A stretch of DNA of 56,118 bases, from the NCBI GenBank assembly GCA_026418195.1, contig JAOABU010000116.1, positions 66,977-123,094 of the forward strand, given 5' to 3'. Position 1 is the first letter of the stretch, and each line of letters opens with the position of its first letter. The notes beneath the pieces are model-generated. The model had not been told where the DNA came from. It saw only the letters and a program-made list of their open reading frames with translations, and made no database searches. The position numbers and the translations under genes were made by a program. Of this stretch, positions 13,019-13,206 are shown one piece after another. The DNA is from Spirochaetota bacterium (lineage in GTDB: Bacteria > Spirochaetota > Spirochaetia > DTKZ01).

Positions 13019-13055
13019 AAAAAAATTGGCCGTCCCCCCGGCAGGAAGGACGGCC
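13019..13055 (-). terminator. Attenuator terminator upstream of leuA
   Basis: On the minus strand GGCCGTCC (13035-13028 in plus numbering) pairs perfectly with GGACGGCC (13055-13048) around a 12-base loop. The sequence AATTTTTTT follows immediately, 26 bases before the leuA ATG. Its proximal strand and loop include CTTCCTGCC (13048-13040), which can instead pair with GGCAGGAAG in the leader ORF (13093-13085). Confidence 0.88.
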
Positions 13056-13078
13056 ATAGTATCCGAATACTATACCAA

Positions 13079-13119
13079 TCTACTCTTCCTGCCTCCCGGC
13101 GGGAACTAGGGCGAGTAGA
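13079..13119 (-). promoter_or_regulatory. leu attenuator: pause hairpin and antiterminator strand
   Basis: TCTACTC (13119-13113, over Leu codons of the leader ORF) pairs perfectly with GAGTAGA (13085-13079, at the leader stop codon). The adjoining GGCAGGAAG (13093-13085) is complementary over 9 bases to 13048-13040 in the terminator. This is the classical mutually exclusive 1:2, 2:3, 3:4 arrangement. Confidence 0.75.
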
Positions 13120-13160
13120 ATGATAATTAGGCTAAGGCCCCTGGTACTATTGGTCTTCAT
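13080..13160 (-). CDS. leuL: Leu/Ile-rich leader peptide of the leuA-cimA attenuator
   Basis: A 26-codon ORF, too short for ordinary gene calling, encoding a peptide that begins MKTNSTRG and continues LSLIIILLALVP before ending GRQEE. Five Leu, three Ile and one Val fall within eleven residues. It has an AGGTG ribosome binding site (13170-13166) and lies between a promoter and the leuA terminator. Two of the Leu codons (CTA CTC) form strand 1 of the pause hairpin, so stalling for charged tRNA-Leu would free the antiterminator. The mix of Leu and Ile codons fits an operon making precursors of both amino acids. Recognition rests entirely on architecture; no homologue was searched. Confidence 0.82.
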   Translation of the reverse strand: MKTNSTRGLSLIIILLALVPAGRQEE

Positions 13161-13177
13161 ACGAACACCTAGTAATG

Positions 13178-13206
13178 TAGATATAGGAATTCTACTGTTT
13201 TGTCAA
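13178..13206 (-). promoter_or_regulatory. Promoter of leuL-leuA-cimA
   Basis: Minus strand TTGACA (13206-13201), 17-base spacer, TATCTA (13183-13178). The predicted start is around 13171, just before the leader-peptide ribosome binding site. Confidence 0.55.

Follow-up and report, generated by a model that had tools for sequence, protein, structure and literature searches.

A predicted leucine/isoleucine transcription attenuator before leuA-cimA in a Spirochaetota bacterium, with related leaders across the Spirochaetia

The window analysed here, a stretch of 56,118 nucleotides from a contig of a Spirochaetota bacterium (JAOABU010000116.1), carries on its minus strand leuA and cimA together with the upstream region that is the subject of this work. 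The gene leuA (11449..12993) encodes a 2-isopropylmalate synthase (TIGR00973, 719 bits) and cimA (9881..11452) an (R)-citramalate synthase (TIGR00977, 650 bits), both scores being above the curated cut-off. The end of leuA overlaps cimA by four bases, and the two genes are one operon. Translation of leuA starts at ATG 12993 behind the Shine-Dalgarno sequence AGGAG, downstream of the terminator described below. Through CimA, pyruvate can be channelled into isoleucine. We dropped the idea that this enzyme is the sole isoleucine route of this organism, because a threonine ammonia-lyase-like gene is present in the source genome (L103; 489.8 bits, over the TIGR01127 cut-off), which may provide a second route. 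The ilvB gene of the same genome (L193) has a promoter, and neither a leader nor a terminator was found before it.

Upstream of leuA, the earlier note had described a promoter, an AGGTG ribosome binding site and a 26-codon ORF, and direct reading of the minus strand found each of them in its place. The promoter (13178..13206) consists of TTGACA at 13206-13201, a 17-nt spacer and the -10 sequence TATCTA at 13183-13178; it was not reported by a strict sigma-70 scan because this -10 is weak. Its TTGACA is retained in two relatives of the same genus (L003 and L084) and in nearly all relatives of the class. The likely Shine-Dalgarno sequence AGGTG (13166..13170) is followed by the leader ORF (13080..13160; ATG 13160, TAG 13082-13080), which reads MKTNSTRGLSLIIILLALVPAGRQEE. 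The control codons (13104..13136), CTT AGC CTA ATT ATC ATT CTA CTC GCC CTA GTT, specify Leu9-Val19, LSLIIILLALV, exactly the five Leu, three Ile and one Val in eleven residues that had been counted. Nine or more Leu, Ile or Val (LIV) residues in 11 have a probability of 2.8e-4 in a composition-matched random 25-codon ORF.

Several pairings can form in the RNA of this leader. The 7-bp protector (1:2) hairpin joins TCTACTC (13113..13119), which covers the Leu15-Leu16 codons CTA CTC, to GAGTAGA (13079..13085) over the leader stop codon. The antiterminator 5' arm, GGCAGGAAG (13085..13093), coincides with the final codons of the leader ORF and pairs over 9 bp with CTTCCTGCC (13040..13048), within the terminator's 5' arm and loop. 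Both pairings are exactly those proposed before. The intrinsic terminator (13019..13056) does contain the eight perfect GC-rich pairs and the T-run of the earlier description, but its full stem is longer, with 13 bp (13056-13027) including two G-U pairs around a TGCC loop, followed by an A and T7 (13026-13019). A small spacer hairpin (ATAGTAT-TCGG-ATACTAT, 13056..13073), absent from that description, lies between the leader stop and the terminator. The leader as a whole has a fold z-score of -4.7, none of 200 shuffles being equally stable.

This element is very probably a ribosome-mediated transcription attenuator of the leuA-cimA operon, of the classical type. A short translatable leader ORF stands between the promoter and the first gene and carries a run of codons for the amino acids of the operon (Leu and Ile before leuA-cimA); an intrinsic terminator (13-bp stem, T7) precedes the first gene; and the antiterminator, with covariation across families, excludes the terminator and is predicted to become available when the ribosome stalls and to be covered when it reaches the stop. 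We infer ribosome stalling, termination and antitermination in the cell, and the response to amino acids, in the following form. RNA polymerase would start just 5' of the 26-codon leader ORF, with a ribosome trailing it. As long as charged Leu-tRNA and Ile-tRNA are available, the ribosome would pass the Leu and Ile codons up to the stop and cover the last codons, GGCAGGAAG; no antiterminator would then form, the 13-bp terminator would fold and transcription would halt before leuA. When Leu-tRNA or Ile-tRNA is uncharged, the ribosome would stall about 7-15 codons before the stop and break the protector hairpin, leaving GGCAGGAAG free to pair with CTTCCTGCC once the latter is transcribed, so that the terminator could not be completed and leuA-cimA would be transcribed. 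An untranslated leader would have GGCAGGAAG sequestered by the protector hairpin, and transcription would by default stop at the terminator.

These steps agree with constrained folding of the nascent RNA, which ended short of the terminator 3' arm and in which the bases under the ribosome were masked. The antiterminator formed with the A site at Leu11, Ile13, Leu15, Leu16 or Leu18 and was lost when the ribosome sat at the stop codon; when the ribosome was left out, the antiterminator arm was held by the protector hairpin. In equilibrium folding the terminator outcompetes the antiterminator, and the switch must therefore be co-transcriptional, as in known attenuators. In Spirochaetales, many genes have a short ORF just 5' of them, which can enhance translation (PMC4833913); this might suggest that the leader ORF acts on leuA by translational control or ribosome re-initiation and not by control of termination. 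However, 86 nt with a strong terminator and its T7 separate the leader stop from the leuA ATG, and the partner of the antiterminator arm is the terminator, not the leuA Shine-Dalgarno sequence; we regard translational coupling of this kind as extremely improbable.

The attenuator logic proposed for the leader in the window is supported by relatives: leader, control codons, antiterminator and terminator recur in the genus and in the class as a whole, and compensatory changes accompany them. In L003, an uncultured Spirochaetales MAG whose LeuA is 96% identical, the frame, start and stop of the leader ORF are kept, and L003 and L084 both retain the leader, the control codons, the stop, the antiterminator and the terminator. 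The L084 leader is one codon shorter, a 3-base length difference that leaves the frame intact and therefore argues for translation of the leader. Separately, the leuA gene of L084 contains one in-frame TAG, a sequencing error or a sign of decay. The earlier note had named a lack of conservation of the ORF or of the alternative stems in relatives as one refutation of its reading, and the reading passed this test. The antiterminator and the terminator are kept across the class; the protector hairpin, present and strong in the window, is weakly supported outside the genus (class-wide p=0.015).

Of 297 class genomes, 122 had a LeuA, and many of their upstream regions were then scanned for short ORFs with 7 or more LIV in 10 residues followed by a terminator. 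The scan gave 29 distinct elements, all but one of them before spirochaete leuA, ilvB, ilvD, ilvN or cimA; the one exception is a non-spirochaete locus, and nothing else turned up at the same threshold when about seventy leuA loci from outside the spirochaetes were scanned. More leaders, together with some chance matches, came from a relaxed scan and from further loci. By hand count, the total is about 68 leaders from roughly two dozen families of the class and one further class of the phylum, and they directly precede leuA, ilvB, ilvD, cimA or pheA. LIV-richness was selected for by the scans and so cannot serve as independent evidence, unlike position, pairing and the I/L/V split. In family f9, an LIV-rich leader and a terminator were also seen before a protein of about 175 aa (L178, L180 and L187), which, judged by eye, looks like an acetolactate synthase small subunit. 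No ilvB leader was found in seven genomes of the related family f49, whose identity as Leptospiraceae is a guess.

Across families, the codon run, how far it lies from the stop, and the pairing are conserved, but the sequence between the control codons and the antiterminator is not. Rfam includes a Leu leader family. Among the leader, T-box and riboswitch families of Rfam, none matched the window at the gathering threshold (best lax matches E 0.9 and 7.6, well short of the cut-off), and eight sampled relatives were likewise without an Rfam match. These results bear on whether the leader RNA, as a riboswitch or T-box, might sense leucine, ppGpp or uncharged tRNA directly, the ORF being incidental. 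A terminator and antiterminator before genes for branched-chain amino acids (BCAA) are also typical of T-boxes and ppGpp riboswitches, and the Leptospira ilvB motif (WRC-14-1) was originally listed as a weak riboswitch candidate (Brewer 2021, PMC8632094). Yet no Rfam family, T-box included, matches the window element even at a lax threshold, the conserved features are those of a leader ORF and its pairing and not the intervening sequence, and the identity of the codons follows the regulated gene. Direct sensing by the RNA is thus very unlikely.

The pairing was further assessed by comparing own with swapped antiterminator complementarity. Among 25 non-redundant leaders this gave p<1/5000 at best, in a permutation that ignores phylogeny. 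The signal was limited to segments that begin between 21 and 9 nt upstream of the stop codon's 3' end (p 0.0008 to <1/5000) and was absent in these 25 leaders from all other segments between -66 and 0. The result repeated in 23 further leaders, independent of the first 25 (p<1/20000, the permutation again ignoring phylogeny). Compensatory changes can be followed from the window (GGCAGGAAG with CTTCCTGCC) to L122 (GTGGAAGGAT with GTCCTTCCAC), L012 (CGGAAGGAT with GTCCTTCCG), L009 (TGCAGGGAGA with TCTCCCTGCG) and L250 (TGCGGGAT with ATCCCGCA). As read from these sequences, selection acts on the antiterminator pairing at the end of the leader in an organism-specific way. The own-vs-swapped comparison also supports the spacer hairpin, but its folding energy is a weak signal across the class (Stouffer -2.5), and we treat it as secondary.

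The earlier note had also suggested that Leu and Ile codons together match an operon with both leuA and cimA, and the comparison of leaders by operon content bears this out. In the control region, mean I/L/V shares are 0.45/0.45/0.10 before leuA with cimA (22 leaders) and 0.66/0.20/0.14 before cimA alone (18 leaders), the two sets differing with permutation p values of 9e-5 for Ile and <1e-5 for Leu, ignoring phylogeny. The shares are 0.13/0.79/0.07 before leuA type 2 alone (2 leaders), 0.51/0.39/0.11 where ilvB or ilvD comes first (17 leaders) and 0.07/0.42/0.50 before ilvB in another class (7 leaders). Indeed, in a sister genus of the window's own family (L286), cimA alone stands behind MKKGWGGDNGIIIAICIDSEFRREA, with five Ile and no Leu; this genome, 83% complete, gave no leuA match. 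Val/Leu-rich leaders with terminators precede ilvB in another class of the phylum (L247, L249, L250, L253, L254 and L228). Two loci of another spirochaete family, L237 (before a prephenate dehydratase gene, G227) and L398 (G567), carry the Phe-rich ORF FFTFAFFSFF and then a terminator before pheA, which is probably a phenylalanine attenuator. The elements, their conservation, their mutual exclusivity and their codon specificity alike emerge from sequence and comparison.

That the codons follow the pathway also weighs on a different account, in which termination is constitutive and partial, or controlled by a protein, and the LIV-rich ORF encodes an unrelated small membrane peptide. Termination requires no translation, an LIV-rich ORF and a terminator are both there, and short ORFs of this composition would be expected to resemble membrane segments. 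A membrane peptide, however, would not track the pathway, being Phe-rich before pheA, Ile-rich before cimA and Leu-rich before leuA type 2, and the antiterminator pairing at the leader's end shows organism-specific selection. We give this account almost no credence.

Returning to the attenuator, the leader peptides of most relatives are probably translated from leaderless mRNA. TTGACA is found in almost all of 46 leaders, and in 37 of them the leader ATG lies at most 11 nt past the predicted end of the -10 (mostly 6-11 nt, as in L223, L224, L225 and L226), so that most are predicted to be leaderless or nearly so. A Shine-Dalgarno-like motif was seen in 5 of the 46, a count for which the structural genes of the window provide a crude control (motif at 10 of 32 ATGs). 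The window leader is an exception to this pattern: its ATG starts 17 nt after the -10 end and is preceded by AGGTG. L003 has AGGGA instead, and L084 and most relatives have no such sequence.

A covariance model built from 30 leaders was run on 393 genomes of the phylum. Those full-length matches outside the training set that reach or exceed about 40 bits precede cimA, leuA or ilvB and have LIV-rich leaders. Matches outside the training set include leaders of cimA in L221, L222, L223, L226 and L227, of ilvB in L220 and, in another class, L228, and of a long-type leuA, judged by eye, in L224 and L225. Several matches below 40 bits resemble plain terminators. The match L237, weak in score, lies before pheA, a gene judged by eye and confirmed by its PF00800 match.

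In enterobacteria, the leu (leuL) and ilvGMEDA attenuators combine tandem cognate codons, a protector and an antiterminator/terminator switch. The window element shares with them the leader ORF of cognate codons, the mutually exclusive antiterminator and terminator, the protector and the intrinsic terminator before the first gene. Unlike them, it has a different sequence without an Rfam match, reads Leu and Ile jointly for leuA-cimA, and uses the end of the leader ORF itself as the antiterminator 5' arm. The Corynebacterium ilvBNC leader (ilvB-II motif), which has mutational or reporter support (PMC10272879, PMC11857589), likewise has an Ile/Leu/Val-rich uORF, an antiterminator and a terminator, but belongs to another phylum, regulates ilvBNC and usually encodes a peptide of 15-17 residues. 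The actinobacterial LEU element is also a Leu-rich leader before leuA; it folds as a pseudoknot, with leucine codons and the leuA Shine-Dalgarno sequence paired in its base stem (PMC1262725), whereas the pairing partner in the window is a terminator arm. In Streptomyces coelicolor, similar-looking ilvB leaders were unresponsive to codon changes (reported in PMC1262725), which counts against the attenuation reading.

The earlier note knew of no description of such a leader in spirochaetes, but a Leptospira ilvB candidate had already been published (PMC10272879), and a claim that none existed would be too strong. Narunsky 2023 re-read the Leptospira ilvB motif as a BCAA-rich uORF and proposed attenuation; its 7 representatives, found only in Leptospira and only before ilvB, all have at least 3 consecutive Val codons (PMC10272879). 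Compared by description, it resembles the window element in phylum and in having a BCAA-rich uORF before a BCAA gene, and it is also resembled by the Val/Leu-rich ilvB leaders of another class (e.g. L250 and L253). Our spirochaete leaders agree with the 2023 view that this "riboswitch candidate" encodes a leader peptide. A 2010 paper that described a hisS leader in Firmicutes stated that, until then, control by leader peptides was known solely in Proteobacteria and Actinobacteria (PMC2965389). Our literature search found no description of an attenuator before leuA, cimA or ilvB in Spirochaetia; the large survey of Lopatovskaya 2010, outside this search, may list spirochaetes.

The mechanism itself is textbook. 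What appears new is its class-wide use in Spirochaetia, its host range, its use on cimA and a leader ORF predicted to be leaderless in most cases. We think it likely that ribosome-mediated attenuation is a general and ancient layer of spirochaete amino-acid biosynthesis, with one architecture (the antiterminator arm being the end of the leader ORF, usually leaderless or nearly so) whose codons are re-tuned as operons gain or lose leuA, cimA, ilvB and pheA, including joint sensing of Leu and Ile for leuA-cimA. A form of control familiar mainly from proteobacteria and actinobacteria would thereby reach a further phylum, and cimA as a target. Little work has been done on how spirochaetes regulate their amino-acid synthesis, and the leader codons offer a testable map of which operon would respond to which amino acid. 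Moreover, the series of cimA-only (Ile), leuA-only (Leu) and leuA-cimA (both) leaders is a clean comparative demonstration of co-evolution between control codons and operon content.

Within the source genome, the window element is the sole match of the covariance model (E 5e-13). A second attenuator was considered there and rejected, the other matches (E at least 0.008, the value of the next one) looking like plain terminators. We also dropped the conserved terminator core GCCGT-C as evidence of homology, because it also occurs in plain terminators at other places in this genome. Among these, L238, L239, L242 and L245 carry the AAGCCGTYCT-like core of the attenuator's terminator, which is perhaps a lineage-wide terminator consensus.
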